Shown here piece by piece: positions 1-5,259 of a stretch of DNA of 64,000 nucleotides. The position numbers were made by a program, and so were the translations under genes. Within the stretch, counting starts at the first letter, position 1. The number at the start of each line of letters is the position of its first letter. A model generated the notes under the pieces. The model saw nothing but the letters and a program-made list of their open reading frames with translations. It had not been told where the DNA came from and made no database searches. The DNA is from an uncultured Aquimarina sp. (GTDB taxonomy: Bacteria; Bacteroidota; Bacteroidia; Flavobacteriales; Flavobacteriaceae): the NCBI GenBank assembly GCA_947500845.1, contig CANMTP010000019.1, positions 1 through 64,000 of the forward strand, read 5' to 3'.

Positions 1-83
1 CATCAATATGAGTTAATTAGAATATTAAAAATATCGTATTTTTATGACCTAGGCTTGGGAAAGGGCTTTACATAGGACATGTT

Positions 84-382
84 GTTATGCGCGGGCTTTT
101 CATTCAGCCGAGACTTTTTAAAAAAGCCTAAAGCAAAGCGATAACTGCTTGCGAACCACTTGCGAACTGCTTTTTCCAATTCCCGCGATCGCTTTGCGAC
201 TTTGGGTTGAACGATAACCATCACAAAATTGCAATGGCCTTTCTTTCGTCAGTTGCGGATAGGAGCGAACCTTTGAATCATTAAAAATCTTTGAAAAATT
301 ACTCGGATCTTTGGTCTGGCGTTTGTCAGTTTTGAGTGTTGCTTGCGATTTGTTTTTCGCACCTTCGATGCTGGCGCATAAC
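84..382. repeat. Segment bounded by a 9-bp perfect inverted repeat
   Basis: GTTATGCGC at 84-92 is matched by its reverse complement GCGCATAAC at 374-382, enclosing about 280 bp. The interior is visibly more GC-rich than the surroundings and contains repeated words such as cttgcgaacc/cttgcgaact (about 149-170). Two small overlapping open frames on the minus strand (42-224 and 118-405) show no family resemblance and I do not call them genes. Small dispersed intergenic elements of this sort occur in flavobacterial genomes, and integron attC sites also use GTTRRRY/RYYYAAC boxes, but the GTTATGC box does not match that consensus exactly. Nature unknown. Confidence 0.35.
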
Positions 383-557
383 GCCAAATATATGAATCGG
401 AGCAAGGCAAGGTAAGCCTAAGCCAATCGATCTATTTGCGCATTTTTATTTCTTGTTTAATTTATAAAAATCTAGCGCCACTGCAAAAAAGGAAATGACC
501 TTTCGATCCAACACTAGACTTTGCTCTGATTTCATATATGATGTTACAAGCTGGCCT

Positions 558-917
558 TTATTTTTTTATTAGATACATAAACTGACTTTCGCTTGGGCTA
601 CAAGTCAAAGTTTTATAAATGTCTTTTTGATTGTTTGGCAATCTTTGTTCGGCATAATTTTCAATAATTTCTACACAAACCTGTTGAGGAGACTTAGAAT
701 TCATAATTATTTTTTCAGTTTCGTTCTCATCAATAAGGCAATGAATTACTACTTTGTCAAACTTTTCAAGATTCAAATCATTTGGTAATAACCTAGTTGA
801 ATTTGGTAATGGGGAACTAATTAATTTTTCACATTCCGAAAATTCCTTGTGAATCGAGATTTTTGCGATTATTTCAATTCCATTTAAGTCATATTTGATT
901 TCTGTTTCCATTGTCAT
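558..917 (-). CDS. Small hypothetical protein (119 aa)
   Basis: I recognise no family. The 119-aa product is soluble, with no signal peptide or membrane segment, and is rich in Asn, Glu, Ile and Lys. Two starts are possible: Met1 at 917 or Met3 at 911. It begins only 3 bases after the stop of the minus-strand gene at 921-1307, so the two are almost certainly cotranscribed with this gene second. Codon use looks like the AT-rich background. Function unknown; it may be the soluble partner of the upstream membrane protein. Confidence 0.6.
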   Translation of the reverse strand: MTMETEIKYDLNGIEIIAKISIHKEFSECEKLISSPLPNSTRLLPNDLNLEKFDKVVIHCLIDENETEKIIMNSKSPQQVCVEIIENYAEQRLPNNQKDIYKTLTCSPSESQFMYLIKK

Positions 918-920
918 TTT

Positions 921-1307
921 TTATGTAAGTTTAATTGAGTACTTTTTCCTGAAGTAAAGAAATAAAAAAATCAGTATTGTGAGAATAACAAAATAAATTA
1001 AGTCTTCTTTTATTGCTTTTAGATAATAGGGTAATTTATTAAGATATGATTTGTGAAAACTACTGTCAGAATATTGAACATCAGAGTAATTCATTCCTTT
1101 ACCATCGGTTATAACTTCATTTCCCAAAAGTGTTTTATAAGTAATTTTTATTAGAGGGGTCTTATAAGGTTGTTCTCCTCCATAATAAGTGTATAGAAAT
1201 TTTCCAAAATGTTCAATTATGAAAAAAGCTATTAAAGATAGCATAGCTGAAATTAGAACTTTTTTAATTATAGATTTATTAATTCGAATTTCCTTTTTTT
1301 CTTGCAT
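921..1307 (-). CDS. Small two-pass membrane protein, hypothetical (128 aa)
   Basis: The protein has a basic N-terminus (KKEIRINKSIIKK), one hydrophobic helix at about residues 17-40 and a second at about 100-120 followed by a basic tail (FRKKYSIK). This predicts two membrane spans with an approximately 60-residue non-cytoplasmic loop. No family is recognised. It is the first gene of a probable two-gene unit with the 119-aa gene that starts 3 bases downstream. Function unknown. Confidence 0.55.
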   Translation of the reverse strand: MQEKKEIRINKSIIKKVLISAMLSLIAFFIIEHFGKFLYTYYGGEQPYKTPLIKITYKTLLGNEVITDGKGMNYSDVQYSDSSFHKSYLNKLPYYLKAIKEDLIYFVILTILIFLFLYFRKKYSIKLT

Positions 1308-1669
1308 ATCATTTGTTGATTTAGCTTGCTTGTAACAACTAAATATAAGACATATATCCTTATATTTCCATTTATATTTATGTCCATTTATATTCGTATT
1401 TAAATATGTATAAGCTTTTGCAATCGCCTATAATTATATACAATTATAGAGTACATGATCCCAAAAGTCAACAATCTTTCTCAATTATTTTTACGGGTTT
1501 CCACAGTTTTCAATATTTTTTGTAGACAGCAATATTTTAGAACATAGGCAGATTGCTTTGCCATGCTCCCTATAACACTTTTTTAAAAAAAAATAACGAG
1601 TTTCAAAAAACGAAACTCGCAGCTCTTATTATTGCACTCAATATATAACCTATTAAATATTTTAAAACC
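1308..1669. other. Intergenic region upstream of the 240-aa gene
   Basis: There is no credible gene in these 362 bases, which are very AT-rich and include a run of TATATTTATATTC-like sequence (about 1365-1410). TTTTACGGGTT occurs at 1489-1499 and is repeated exactly at 2913-2923 on the far side of the 240-aa gene; its core resembles the ACGGGA motif of the array at 2559-2804. A hairpin lies at 1597-1619 and is listed separately. Confidence 0.5.
1581..1619 (-). terminator. Hairpin with T-run, terminator-like on the minus strand
   Basis: CGAGTTTC (1597-1604) pairs with GAAACTCG (1612-1619) around a 7-nt loop. Read on the minus strand the stem is followed by TTATTTTTTTTT (1596 down to about 1585), the form of an intrinsic terminator. 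No minus-strand gene ends just upstream of it, so it may insulate the two small genes at 558-1307 from antisense transcription, or act as a 5' leader hairpin for the plus-strand gene at 1670. Confidence 0.4.
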
Positions 1670-2392
1670 ATGTCAAAAGACAATTTTGATCAAAAAGTAG
1701 CGGTGCTTAATACCATAGCACCCAAAGATGTAAGAACCCCTAATATGCCGGTAGATGCGCTGCTGCAAGAAGCAGAAAACCTGTTTGTATGGGCGAGTGA
1801 GGATAAGGTGATGCTAGAGAACAACTCTGGGCTCGACTGGGAAACCTTTGGTGTCGATCTTCCTATTCGTGCGGGAGCCCTGCGCCATGCACAATCTCTA
1901 TGGATTAGCGAACGCTATAGCCAGGAAGAGGCTAACAAAACCTGGAGAGAAGAATCTCCAAAAGCCTATCAGCTTCGGGATGATTTGCTGGATGATTTTA
2001 GATACGCGTTTAGAAAACGTACCGATTTGCTAAGTCGTACTCGCCAAATTGCCAATGGTTACGGCGATGCCAATATGATACAGGATCTTAGTGATCTAAG
2101 TGTTTTGGGTAAGGCAAACCCAAAAGAACTTATGGCTTCAAAATTTAAAATGGAAAAGCTGGATCAGGCTGCTACCCTTTCTAATGATATGGCAGAACTA
2201 CTTGCAAAAGCCAATGGGGCTACGCAAGAAAATTCTTTAGCCAAAATGGTACGGGACAAAGCTTATACGCATCTTAGAGAGGCTATTGAAGAACTAAGGG
2301 CTGCCGGTAAGTATGTTTTTAGGGATTATCCCGAGCGGTTCAAAGGGTATGTAAGTCGATACCATCGCAAACAAAACGCTACACGGGCATAG
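1670..2392 (+). CDS. Conserved-looking hypothetical protein (240 aa)
   Basis: I do not recognise a named family. The 240-aa product has no signal peptide or membrane segment and is strongly helical in composition. Three Trp sit in the N-terminal third (FVWASEDK, LDWETFG, SLWISERY), followed by a charged region rich in Arg/Asp (DDLLDDFRYAFRKR) and a basic C-terminus (RYHRKQNATRA). The gene is noticeably more GC-rich than its neighbours and stands alone, with its own strong terminator at 2422-2459. Downstream lies the 21-bp-phased array, so an array-binding role can be imagined, but nothing in the sequence shows it. Confidence 0.75.
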   Translation: MSKDNFDQKVAVLNTIAPKDVRTPNMPVDALLQEAENLFVWASEDKVMLENNSGLDWETFGVDLPIRAGALRHAQSLWISERYSQEEANKTWREESPKAYQLRDDLLDDFRYAFRKRTDLLSRTRQIANGYGDANMIQDLSDLSVLGKANPKELMASKFKMEKLDQAATLSNDMAELLAKANGATQENSLAKMVRDKAYTHLREAIEELRAAGKYVFRDYPERFKGYVSRYHRKQNATRA

Positions 2393-2421
2393 AAACCCAT
2401 GCTATATTATTTACCCTCTAG

Positions 2422-2459
2422 ATCCCGGGATACTATCTACAAGTTCCGGGATTTTTTTT
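2422..2459 (+). terminator. Intrinsic terminator of the 240-aa gene
   Basis: ATCCCGG (2422-2428) pairs with CCGGGAT (2446-2452), followed directly by a run of T (2452-2459), 30 bases after the stop codon at 2392. Confidence 0.85.
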
Positions 2460-2558
2460 ACTCGATAATTAAAGTTGAAATGCTGCAGGCATGCCGCCAC
2501 AGCAAAATTAATTGCTAACCAATGCCTCTAAGGCATGCTTTTGCGGTTAGACAGGCTT

Positions 2559-2804
2559 TCCTGTAGATTATTTTATGCTTACCGTAGGTTAATCTACCTC
2601 TCCCGTTGGTATATTTTTGTTTCCCGTTACTTGCATACCCCTTCCCGTGCCCTTTTTTGTCGTTCCCGTCTTACGGGAGCATGATCTATACCTACAGGAA
2701 GGGGTTGTACTCCTACGGGAGCACCAAAATACCTTACGGGAAGGGGTTCTAGGGTTACGGGAAGGGTCTGTATACCTACGGGAGGGGGTTCTAGGGTTAC
2801 GGGA
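2559..2804. repeat. Array of a 6-bp motif every 21 bp, reversing orientation at its centre
   Basis: TCCCGT starts at 2601, 2622, 2643 and 2664. One-mismatch copies at 2559 (TCCTGT) and 2580 (TACCGT) extend the same phase. Its reverse complement ACGGGA starts at 2673, 2715, 2736, 2757, 2778 and 2799, with a one-mismatch copy (ACAGGA) at 2694. Every step within each half is exactly 21 bp. The halves are mirror-placed: each left copy and its right partner have start positions summing to 5337. The right-hand copies extend to YTACGGGAR. The 15-bp spacers are mostly different, except AGGGGTTCTAGGGTT-like sequence that recurs (2742-2756, 2784-2798). Twenty-one bp is two helical turns, so all copies would face the same side of the DNA. 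Confidence 0.85.
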
Positions 2805-3012
2805 CGAGTAAAATCAGGCCTGGGACAAGCGCTCTATGTATAATTTGGCAATTAATTTTTAGGAGTACCATGAGTTTTGATATACACCTTATTGGTTATT
2901 CGTCTCTTACTGTTTTACGGGTTCCTCCCTCCTATGATTACAGGCTGGTTTTATAACATTAATACCCTACAATATAATGACAAATAATTCAGATGGTTAC
3001 ATGATACCCTAG

Positions 3013-3270
3013 TTTAACGTGAGTTCGATCTAAAGATTTTATTTATAAAAGGCGAAACCTACCTGCATTGTACTTCGGCAGGCAGGTTGAGTGATTTTTT
3101 GTAGTGAAACGAAGAAAAATTAGCCTGTCCGCCTGTAGAGGGTATCGAAATTAGGCTTTTGATTGAAAATTTACTTGTCTTCGATAGTTCTGCTGAGTGT
3201 GTCGAAGTACGATTTTCTATCGAAAATCACTCTGACTGACGTAAATTTTCTTACATCGAACTCACGTAAA
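3013..3270. repeat. MITE-like palindromic intergenic element
   Basis: TTTAACGTGAGTTCGAT (3013-3029) and ATCGAACTCACGTAAA (3255-3270) are inverted copies differing by one inserted base. Internal hairpins include CCTACCTGC/GCAGGCAGG (about 3059-3088), CTTCGATA/TGTCGAAG (about 3179-3208) and GATTTTC/GAAAATC (about 3211-3229). The arrangement, about 258 bp with inverted ends and no coding frame, fits a miniature inverted-repeat element or a flavobacterial dispersed repeat. No target-site duplication was identified. Confidence 0.55.
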
Positions 3271-3326
3271 TTTAAGGATAGAAATTTAATGTCGAACTAT
3301 TTTCCTTTCAATAAAAGGAAGAATCC

Positions 3327-3974
3327 TTATACCTTGGTTACCTTCGCTATTTTACTCTTTAGCTCCTCTTTGATGGTATCGTGCCATTCCTCTTTTAAAA
3401 TGCTTAAAAAAATAGCATCTATTCGATGTCCATCATTATCGAGGCAGTAGTTTCTAAAAACACCTTCGACGGTACAACCAATACTTTTCATAGCGTTAAT
3501 ACTCCTTGTATTCAAATTACTCGCCGCAAATCCGATACGTTCGACATTCATGTTTTCGAATGCAAATTCTAATAGTAAATATTTACAGTTTTTATTGGTG
3601 CCGTCGCCGTGAGACTGTTTTCCGTACCAGGTATAGCCTAAATCTACGGTATTGTTAAACGGTTTGAAATTATAGAACCTGGTGCTTCCCACATATTTAT
3701 TTTTCCTTTTATCAAAAACAATAAAAGGGTATTCGTTTTGATCCTCTCTCTGCCGAATAGCATTCTTGACATACTTTTCCAGGTTTTCGGCACCATTGGC
3801 ACCACCAGAATTAAACCTCCAAAGCTCTGGTTCATGTATAGAATACGCTAATAAATGTTCAAAATCAGAGACTTTTAAGGGTCTTAATCGTACGAAGGCA
3901 TTCTCTAAAATATAATCTTTATTGAAGTCAATTTGCATATAGTTTCTATTCTGATAAGGCAATTGGCTAAACAT
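3327..3974 (-). CDS. GNAT family N-acetyltransferase, RimJ/RimL type
   Basis: This 215-aa protein resembles the ribosomal-protein/amino-acid acetyltransferases that move an acetyl group from acetyl-CoA to an amine. It shows the usual order: beta-1 LRPLKVSDFEHLLAYS, a central strand with GSTRFYNF and VDLGYTWYG, an acetyl-CoA loop region (KQSHGDGTNKNCKYLLL) and the family C-terminal signature ASNLNTRSINAMKSIGC. The acetyl-CoA loop is atypical: Q/RxxGxG/A is represented by KQSHGDG. Met13 (codon at 3938) is an alternative start giving the more usual N-terminus. The stop of the upstream beta-lactamase-like gene is 37 bases away, so cotranscription is likely. Substrate cannot be told. Confidence 0.85.
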   Translation of the reverse strand: MFSQLPYQNRNYMQIDFNKDYILENAFVRLRPLKVSDFEHLLAYSIHEPELWRFNSGGANGAENLEKYVKNAIRQREDQNEYPFIVFDKRKNKYVGSTRFYNFKPFNNTVDLGYTWYGKQSHGDGTNKNCKYLLLEFAFENMNVERIGFAASNLNTRSINAMKSIGCTVEGVFRNYCLDNDGHRIDAIFLSILKEEWHDTIKEELKSKIAKVTKV

Positions 3975-4011
3975 TAATTACTGCTAATATGTAAGCGATA
4001 GTTACAGCTTT

Positions 4012-5259
4012 TCAATTCAACTTTTCCTGGTATTCTTCTAAGGTATCCCATATTGAAAAAAACTGTTTAACCCCCTTCTTATTGTTTAAATCGGTATTGA
4101 TCAAGAGTACCCTTCCTATCTTTTTCTTTGAATCAAAAAACATAAAAGTAGACACGCCGGGATCTCCTCCGGTATGACCTACATAACCTTTTGCAGAAAA
4201 TCCCATAAAAATTCCTGAATTATATTCGTCGTTATATGGATTTTCCTCATTCCGTTCGGTAAAGTGATTAGCATCCAATTGTTTCGTAAACAACTCTTTG
4301 TAACTCTCATTAGTCAGCACTGTTCCATTTCCTGAATATCCGTTGATCAATTCGATGAGATATGTACTCATATCGTGACTTGAAGTGATAAATCCTCCAT
4401 CAGGATAAGTGATCAATGAATAAAATGGTAATTCTGTGGTCGGGGTTTTATATAATTTTGAATGCATAGAAACATCTATCATATCAAATGACCAACCTGA
4501 AGCATTCATCTCTAAAGGTTTAAGAATATATTTGGTAGTAAACTCATTAAATTTTTCTCCGGTAGCATTTTCAATAATCAATGCTGCCAGAGTTGCTCCT
4601 ACATTAGTATATTCGAAGAGTTCACCAGGTTCTTTATTTAAAAAACCTTCTTTAGAGTACCACTTTCCATTTTCACTAAGTACGCTTTGTAAGAAATCGC
4701 TCATCGGTGTCTTCTTCTCGGGAGCATTGAAGTTTTCGGGAATCTCTATTGACTTCGCATTTACACTATCTCGCTCTGTCTTTAATATATAAGATTCTTC
4801 GTCATAAACATCGGTATCCACAATAGTTGACGTATGTGTAGCCAAATGTCGAATGGTAATCGGTTTTTCAGGAAAAAAGGGATTTTCGACTGTAAAAGGT
4901 AGATGTTTTTGAATAGGGTCATCCAGTTTTAGCTTTCCCATTTCCTGTGCTTTGAGCAGTGCAATCCCGATAAACGTTTTCGATATAGATGCGATATTTT
5001 GGAGTGTATTTTGAGTATACGCTACTTCATTGTCCAGATCTGCATATCCAATTCCGTTTTCATAAAGTACCGTATCCTTATTCACGATAGCCACCCCAAA
5101 ACCATTGATTAGCCCTTCTTTCTGAATTTTTTGTAGGGCTAACGTTAAAGAGTCTGCCACAGCAGATATTTCCTTTTCTGGTTCTTTATTTGAAGTTCCC
5201 TTTTGATTACATAATAGAAGAAAAAGCCCAATTACTACCGGTATTATTGATTTGCTCAT
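4012..5259 (-). CDS. Serine hydrolase of the beta-lactamase class C / PBP4* family, lipoprotein
   Basis: The 415-aa product begins with a lipoprotein signal (lipobox LLLC, Cys17), so it is probably anchored in the envelope. The catalytic motifs of the family are present: S91-x-x-K94 (ASISK), a YxN motif in FEYTNVGA, and an HTGG box near the C-terminus (YVGHTGGDPG) replacing KTG. These enzymes act on D-Ala peptides, beta-lactams or esters through an acyl-serine intermediate; the lipoprotein version in Bacteroidota is more often a peptidase or esterase than a resistance enzyme, and the substrate here is unknown. It lies between fhs and the GNAT gene on the same strand. Confidence 0.9.
   Translation of the reverse strand: MSKSIIPVVIGLFLLLCNQKGTSNKEPEKEISAVADSLTLALQKIQKEGLINGFGVAIVNKDTVLYENGIGYADLDNEVAYTQNTLQNIASISKTFIGIALLKAQEMGKLKLDDPIQKHLPFTVENPFFPEKPITIRHLATHTSTIVDTDVYDEESYILKTERDSVNAKSIEIPENFNAPEKKTPMSDFLQSVLSENGKWYSKEGFLNKEPGELFEYTNVGATLAALIIENATGEKFNEFTTKYILKPLEMNASGWSFDMIDVSMHSKLYKTPTTELPFYSLITYPDGGFITSSHDMSTYLIELINGYSGNGTVLTNESYKELFTKQLDANHFTERNEENPYNDEYNSGIFMGFSAKGYVGHTGGDPGVSTFMFFDSKKKIGRVLLINTDLNNKKGVKQFFSIWDTLEEYQEKLN

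Follow-up and report, generated by a model that had tools for sequence, protein, structure and literature searches.

A dyad-symmetric 21-bp array linked to a small helical-protein gene family in Aquimarina: a candidate scaffold for cooperative protein assembly

The 64-kb stretch of DNA analysed here (the window) raises the question of what kind of element would repeat a 6-bp motif at a fixed interval and then reverse its orientation. Positions 2559–2804 hold 13 sites of the TCCCGT/ACGGGA type, every step within an arm being 21 bp (Table 1), and three of the sites depart from the motif by one base each (TCCTGT at 2559, TACCGT at 2580 and ACAGGA at 2694). A motif-blind period-21 score reaches 12 at the array, as compared with a maximum of 8 over 100 dinucleotide shuffles of the window, and the peak score for the other periods from 15 to 30 is at most 8 in the window. 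TRF detects the array in part, at 2734–2804 with period 21 and 3.4 copies, and at 2688–2804 with period 42. A preliminary description of this DNA had reported strict 21-bp steps with an orientation switch, and left copies mirrored about 2671. Both statements are borne out: each of the six left copies has a right partner, the switch falls within the dyad centre, and a seventh right copy (2799) is without a left partner. Right-hand units have a weak extended consensus beyond the motif in common, and stops occur in all six frames across the array (1, 1, 4, 2, 4 and 10). The copies of TTTTACGGGTT that had been placed at 1489 and 2913 were both confirmed.

Table 1 Coordinates of the features in the window, and majority motifs of unlinked arrays in genomes of the genus
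Feature	Position or contig	Strand	Details
Gene for an all-helical protein of 240 aa, unnamed family	1670–2392	+	ORF, adjoining the array on its 5′ side
Left arm, six TCCCGT-type sites	2559–2669		2559, 2580, 2601, 2622, 2643, 2664; first two with one mismatch each
Dyad centre, TCCCGT and ACGGGA around CTT (TCCCGTCTTACGGGA)	2664–2678		15-bp palindrome, midpoint 2671, 9 bp between the starts of the facing motifs
Right arm, seven ACGGGA-type sites	2673–2804		2673, 2694, 2715, 2736, 2757, 2778, 2799; 2694 with one mismatch
Long imperfect hairpin predicted for a transcript that includes the gene	2555–2810	+	−117.7 kcal/mol, z −7.6; minus strand z −3.8
Concordant unlinked arrays	G000 C5; G045 C208 and C68		CGGG 13/14; CCGG 4/5 each
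Concordant unlinked array	G032 C39		CCGG 12/13; self-palindromic CCCGGG in both G032 arrays
Unlinked arrays concordant by majority only	G037 C1; G017 C39; G019 C5		CGGG 4/6; CCGG 6/11; CCGG 8/13
Discordant unlinked arrays	G017 C34; G019 C11

Homologues of the adjacent 240-aa gene (E ≤ 1e-10) occur in 22 of the 52 genomes of the genus, and a paralogue that is 62% identical lies on contig C6 of the same genome as the window. The preliminary description had suggested searching related genomes for the motif at its 21-bp period beside homologues of this gene, and held that absence of the period in close relatives, or arrays dispersed without regard to any gene, would argue against a specific role. 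We scored up to 900 bp 3′ of the gene at 29 homologue loci, drawn from 39 places by leaving out nine without a locus and one fragment (L299). The period-21 score was at least 6 at 24 of the 29 loci and at least 8 at 13 of them, one of these 13 (L293) owing its score to a 7-bp repeat, CATCAAC, that is also found within locus L331. Among 440 control segments, all taken from one relative, 26 reached 6 and one reached 8. Eight other periods between 17 and 25 reached a score of 6 at three of the 29 loci at most, and only 21 is clearly enriched; the suggested association with the gene is thus upheld as far as the period is concerned. Five of the 29 loci fell below 6. When larger neighbourhoods were considered, the single top period-21 peak adjoined the gene in 14 of 19 cases (18 family-gene loci and the window), one of the 14 being the 7-bp repeat at L331.

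The motif itself did not hold across relatives, among which ACGGGA, CCGGGA, CGGGGA, GCGGGG, CGCGGA, CGCTGA and others are found. Because the motif differs between species, a run of three exact ACGGGA copies spaced by 21 bp is confined to the window's own genome among the 52 of the genus. To judge from an unscored reading of the arrays, CGGGA-like motifs tend to accompany genes of subfamily A, whose products are at least 67% identical to the window protein, and TGCGSG-like motifs tend to accompany those at 62% identity or less. Inspection by eye also revealed an odd unit, approximately CCGMTGGTCGATAAAA, that replaces the usual motif in subfamily-B arrays (L289:2302-2390, L017:2311-2400 and matches of the TGCGSG pattern) and that is common to several species and paralogues. 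Several genomes of the genus carry an array, with or without the gene, in what we take to be an acs-pccB-argH region (L321, L325, L400, L406, L408-L410 and L435); in other genomes this region contains no array scoring 7 or more. Neither origin nor terminus could be placed from 20 skew samples of a relative with a single contig, the values being too noisy.

We used a position-weight scan to look for a reversed arm in 44 regions. A clear second arm was present in 36 and absent from the other eight, and the offset between facing motifs was 9 bp modulo 21 in 29 of the 36 (19 directly, and ten with a nominal value of 7 that reflects a scoring word starting one base earlier), although these 29 are not independent events, since many of the arrays are related by descent. 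The remaining offsets were 8 in three regions, 2 in two, and 3 and 10 in one each; an offset of 2 is what a self-palindromic motif is expected to give, as in the G032 array (CCCGGG). Motif and spacer have diverged, and the geometry has not. A fixed 21-bp phase amid diverging sequence, together with a fixed dyad, is the trace that selection for protein placement on B-DNA would be expected to leave.

Arrays of the same class also lie away from the gene. A pattern search of the window's own genome returned one further array of the same motif, on contig C5 at 86600–86867, and one isolated pair of sites on contig C1. The C5 array consists of four left and ten right sites, and its centre keeps the 9-bp offset of the window array around another triplet. 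The 240-aa gene has no copy beside it, and a tblastn search of 18 loci with the family (E ≤ 1) detected no gene remnants at unlinked arrays. We then searched 14 genomes of the genus, chosen by hand and related to one another, for four copies of CSGGGA with up to three mismatches. The pattern was present in all seven genomes with a subfamily-A gene and in none of the seven without, and the reversed-pattern control matched none. Unlinked CSGGGA arrays, lying either at a great distance from the gene or on a different contig, are present in six of the seven subfamily-A genomes; in the window's own genome, the unlinked C5 array alone reached the four-copy pattern. The majority motif of the gene-linked array agrees with that of the unlinked array in seven of nine unlinked arrays (Table 1). 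Of 15 chosen genomes that have the gene, eight matched a TGCGSG pattern, in part through gene-linked arrays, and one of 11 without a detectable gene matched it; the reversed control of this pattern also matched G017. The one exception, G023, belongs to the same genus and has an array with no gene detected at E ≤ 1e-10. Of the two outcomes named beforehand as adverse, absence of the period is not the rule in close relatives (24 of 29 loci show it), and arrays do also occur away from the gene.

Two further features of the same genome were seen near its arrays. The sequence TTTACGGRTTTCCACA has exactly two copies there (window 1490–1505 and C5:85968-85983), each 0.6–1.1 kb before one of the two ACGGGA arrays, and a near copy is found in the relative G015 (L320:7820), about 180 bp before a family gene. 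Direct repeats of about 100 bp (cctcctcgtagtgacggggtg...gcgattcgcctcgagcgaagaagcaatc) were noted by eye just before the C5 array, at L015:6050-6480.

The 240-aa protein has no significant Pfam match. Its AlphaFold2 model is all-helical (pLDDT 82), and Foldseek gave no match at E ≤ 0.001, with a viral library likewise yielding none at that threshold. The best VIA match was 2rld_A, an S23-family protein (Z 8.1, rmsd 3.0, 92 aligned), which is within the range common to helical bundles. A ribbon-helix-helix or helix-turn-helix domain was not recognised in the protein, either as a significant Pfam domain or as a clear match in the fold search. With a pI of 6.9, the protein is not basic; among three distant relatives, the helical domain is acidic in L316 and L310 (pI 4.9 and 4.8) and basic in L318 (pI 9.7). 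No homologue turned up among 72,556 plasmid records or 50,697 phage records, and none was confirmed among 29 stretches of viral contigs that matched a peptide pattern. With no confirmed homologue in plasmid, phage or viral collections, a mobile-element reading was dropped. PADLOC gave no match for any of eight proteins, and PHROGs gave none for the window protein and only weak or tail-fibre-like matches for some relatives. The nearest ORF on the 3′ side in the window encodes an acetyltransferase, and two ORFs on the 5′ side have no significant Pfam match; further 3′ ORFs presumably encode a beta-lactamase-type protein and a formate-THF ligase.

The window protein scores 16.2 bits against the NCBIfam family NF052641 (PQLLE), for which the curated cut-off is 80, and is not a member on that measure; all 20 members of an alignment match NF052641 weakly, at E ≤ 1, with a best E of 9.8e-6. 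When 295 genomes of the class were searched with NF052641, 13 loci were found, distributed over nine genomes. Period 21 is the top period between 18 and 24 at 12 of these 13, the exception being L307, the sole locus above the family cut-off. Among the 12, L313 owes its top score to a 7-bp repeat that adjoins a weaker array, and the signal is weaker at four AT-rich loci (L309, L314, L317 and L319), being weak at L314 and L319. The motifs are again different (TTCCGC, TTACC, CAGCCG and others). The period-21 stretches of these distant loci lie 5′ of the start codon, whereas those of the genus lie 3′ of the gene. The helical domain is common to the distant proteins, to which L310 and L316 add a carboxypeptidase-regulatory-like domain (PF13620, above the Pfam cut-off); in L316, this C-terminal domain resembles a transthyretin-like carboxypeptidase domain (5aq0_A, Z 13.4, rmsd 1.6, 81 aligned; Foldseek 9.2e-6). 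When helix lists were compared by eye, the L316 model (pLDDT 89) showed about ten helices in an order that matches the window protein, and a profile built from the distant proteins recovers members from the genus in a local ORF set, with E down to 1.2e-5.

Searches that were independent of the gene gave a broader picture. At least 119 genome_contigs stretches contain three exact ACGGGA copies; all were scanned by script for chains, and 35 of them, inspected by eye, include spaced arrays and also simple repeats, 7-bp repeats and near-perfect tandem repeats. A further 95 viral stretches with three exact copies were scanned by script for chains only. Among 397 genomes of the taxonomic family, four copies of ACGGGA with up to three mismatches matched eight, including the window's own, as compared with two for the reversed control; judged by eye, G148 and G349 are array-like and the others resemble simple or coding repeats. 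Period-21 arrays without the gene family beside them are found in another flavobacterial genus (G148 and G349) and on contigs of Bacteroidales and Bacillaceae. The presence of arrays with an orientation flip outside the family indicates that dyad 21-bp arrays are more widespread than this gene family. A Tannerellaceae MAG, Nc350_bin62, has at least five TCCCGT/ACGGGA arrays that flip at a constant 21-bp offset (L076, L088, L089, L123 and L132), and in Gracilibacillus massiliensis (L096:6929-7078) the mirror is the opposite one, three ACGGGA copies being followed by five of TCCCGT with an offset of 18. In another flavobacterial genus, an array of about 570 bp and about 27 units of 21 bp (L338:7622-8190) follows directly on a gene that we take to be guaB.

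We infer protein binding and cooperativity as part of a model in which the array is a cis-acting DNA scaffold for the assembly of a sequence-specific protein, with the linked gene involved, and we regard this model as about equally balanced between right and wrong. Each 21-bp unit, corresponding to two turns of B-DNA, would present one recognition motif on the same face of the DNA. The arms are tiled from the dyad as two units on either side of a central NNN, which suggests nucleation by a symmetric pair and outward growth; most likely, assembly would start at the fixed 15-bp dyad with such a pair and then extend unit by unit. Array and 240-aa gene would together form one module, whose reader is likely to be the product of the gene or a partner tied to the gene, and this reader could also serve, in trans, other chromosomal arrays whose motif is of the same class. 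Its likely roles would be to shape the chromosome locally or to anchor it in the manner of a centromere, with autoregulation in addition. We favour the gene product as reader because of the linkage, the co-occurrence and the partial motif concordance, and on this sequence evidence the array is probably, though not certainly, read by it; the neutral pI, the lack of a recognised DNA-binding domain and the arrays without the gene stand against this assignment. Against the model as a whole are the two discordant arrays among nine that are unlinked, the three further ones whose agreement holds by majority only, the five of 29 homologue loci with a score below 6, the open frames in six of eight distant arrays, and the side on which the array lies, 3′ in the genus and 5′ at the distant loci.

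Alternatively, the sites might serve a different, widespread DNA-binding protein, and the 240-aa gene might be a regulated neighbour or passenger. The arrays near other genes in Bacteroidales, Bacillaceae and the other flavobacterial genus, the array of G023, and the neutral charge of the 240-aa protein and acidity of some relatives are all in keeping with this explanation, which we nevertheless think somewhat unlikely: in the chosen genomes, CSGGGA-type arrays occur only with a subfamily-A gene (seven of seven versus none of seven), and distant relatives of the gene found with the protein profile mostly carry arrays. We consider it decidedly unlikely that the array is a functionless minisatellite, in which slippage and inverted duplication made 21-bp repeats that persist beside the gene by chance. 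Copy number does vary, L284 and G022 C66 are near-perfect tandem repeats, and the units have a weak consensus; however, the fixed phase and 9-bp centre outlast the divergence of motif and spacer, the linkage is to one gene family in many genomes, and period 21 alone is enriched. Decayed coding repeats, with 21 bp equal to seven codons, are highly improbable. Divisibility by three would suit such an origin, coding examples of 21-bp repeats are on record elsewhere (PMC8161180), and at least one frame stays open over 170–310 bp in L284 alone of the 11 genus arrays and in six of the eight distant arrays tested, for which a coding origin is conceivable. Against it, the window array has stops in six frames and ten of the 11 genus arrays are closed in all six.

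That the array might instead work as RNA, its transcript with the gene forming an extended hairpin duplex of 21-nt period either to control the mRNA or to serve as a small RNA, was considered in view of the folding of the window array (Table 1). The preliminary description had stated that the 15-bp spacers are not complementary. This is incorrect for the window array, since the spacers are partly complementary between the arms: they pair above chance, beyond what composition explains (z −5.7 when letters were shuffled within spacers), and the fold of the plus strand exceeds that of the minus strand. An RNA role would also be consistent with the position of the arrays, which a transcript of the gene would carry in its 3′ or 5′ UTR, with a sense z of −4 or below in eight of 28 genus regions, and with the transcription of some 52-nt repeats in Bacillus coagulans (PMC8161180). 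However, seven of the 28 genus regions have an antisense z of −4 or below, and such a lack of strand bias is what a DNA dyad would give. The C5 array folds weakly (sense z −2.3), sense values for 11 distant arrays, with 30 shuffles each, are between 0 and −2 (antisense −6.0 at L315), and eight of 44 regions are without a clear second arm. Rfam returned two matches in window positions 1–5000, both far below the gathering score and outside the array, and a strict period of 21 would suit B-DNA better than RNA. Small hairpins with the motif in the loop are not general either; low Watson-Crick permutation values were obtained for four of 21 arms, namely the C5 right arm (0.002), the L298 left arm (0.004), L297 (0.04) and L284 (0.0002, a small effect with alternating units). 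The RNA reading is striking for the window array, yet folding is strand-symmetric in the genus and weak at C5, and we judge it unlikely. The earlier preference for an array that binds protein cooperatively, over a CRISPR, an RNA hairpin or a gene, stands as the best fit to the phase, the 9-bp centre and the linkage, with the qualification that the window array does fold.

Several known systems resemble the array in part. CRISPR arrays have near-identical repeats of about 24 nt or more, unique spacers and one orientation; here, the motif is 6 bp, the 15-bp spacers have a weak consensus, and the orientation switches, so that a CRISPR was rejected. Plasmid replication iterons are direct sites spaced by about two turns, with a related palindromic site for the dimer (an inverted-repeat operator), but no replication initiator gene was recognised beside the array, in which both arms are continuous with the dyad. 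Subirana and Messeguer reportedly described a 22-nt repeat class in the Journal of Bacteriology in 2020. The closest published kind is the 20–21-nt bacterial tandem repeats of the same authors, which are intergenic and mostly noncoding, of constant length, with a short conserved core in each repeat; their families are particular to a species, a genome holds several arrays, and they have been catalogued as lacking both a conserved sequence overall and an evident function (PMC8161180). For these, the authors propose a protein that polymerises at a fixed spacing; ‘palindrom-’, ‘orientation’ and ‘spacer’ are absent from the main text (PMC8161180). Like those repeats, the window array has 21 bp per step, is noncoding, has a short core, and is one of two ACGGGA arrays in its genome. 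Unlike them, it has a mostly variable unit, arms that flip at a fixed dyad, and a linked gene family; with its opposed arms and variable spacers, it is not a head-to-tail repetition of a whole unit. BrickBuilt of Porphyromonas gingivalis, a 23-nt head-to-tail minisatellite without spacers inside a MITE, is likewise an intergenic short-period repeat in a member of the Bacteroidota, whereas a dyad and a linked gene family do not feature in the portion of the BrickBuilt account drawn on here (PMC4596501).

Plasmid partition sites are the closest working counterpart. Centromere-binding proteins act at parC (ParR), tubC (TubR), parH (ParG) and parS of pSM19035, where short direct and inverted repeats lie upstream or downstream of a gene for a small protein, much as they do here, and where nucleoprotein assembly is cooperative and accompanied by autoregulation (PMC5016525). 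Unlike partition loci, the array has 21-bp steps and a fixed dyad, and its gene has no homologue in the plasmid collection and no recognised ribbon-helix-helix or winged-helix product. We do not class it as a partition site, because no partition NTPase gene (ParA, ParM or TubZ) was seen adjoining the array among the window neighbours and no DNA-binding fold was recognised. The titles and abstracts searched, drawn from a collection with few subscription journals, contain no account of a 21-bp array that has both a dyad and a linked gene.

What this locus adds to the published 20–21-nt repeats is the dyad, the variable spacers and the linked gene; in one phylum, such intergenic repeats gain a symmetry of fixed geometry and a candidate partner protein. 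A layout that is kept while motifs differ points to an unrecognised DNA-protein system in these bacteria. More tentatively, and as a possibility that falls short of likely, this may be a dedicated, fast-diversifying protein-DNA system of the Bacteroidota, in which helical paralogues would each read their own motif in dyad 21-bp arrays, beside the gene and elsewhere, and build centromere-like or architectural structures; the unexplained 20–22-nt satellites of other bacteria would then be analogous sites. The function of such repeats thereby becomes amenable to a direct binding test on one small protein, for which phase and dyad provide built-in controls. If the model is true, these arrays would belong to an unrecognised, sequence-specific system that organises the chromosome or regulates genes.
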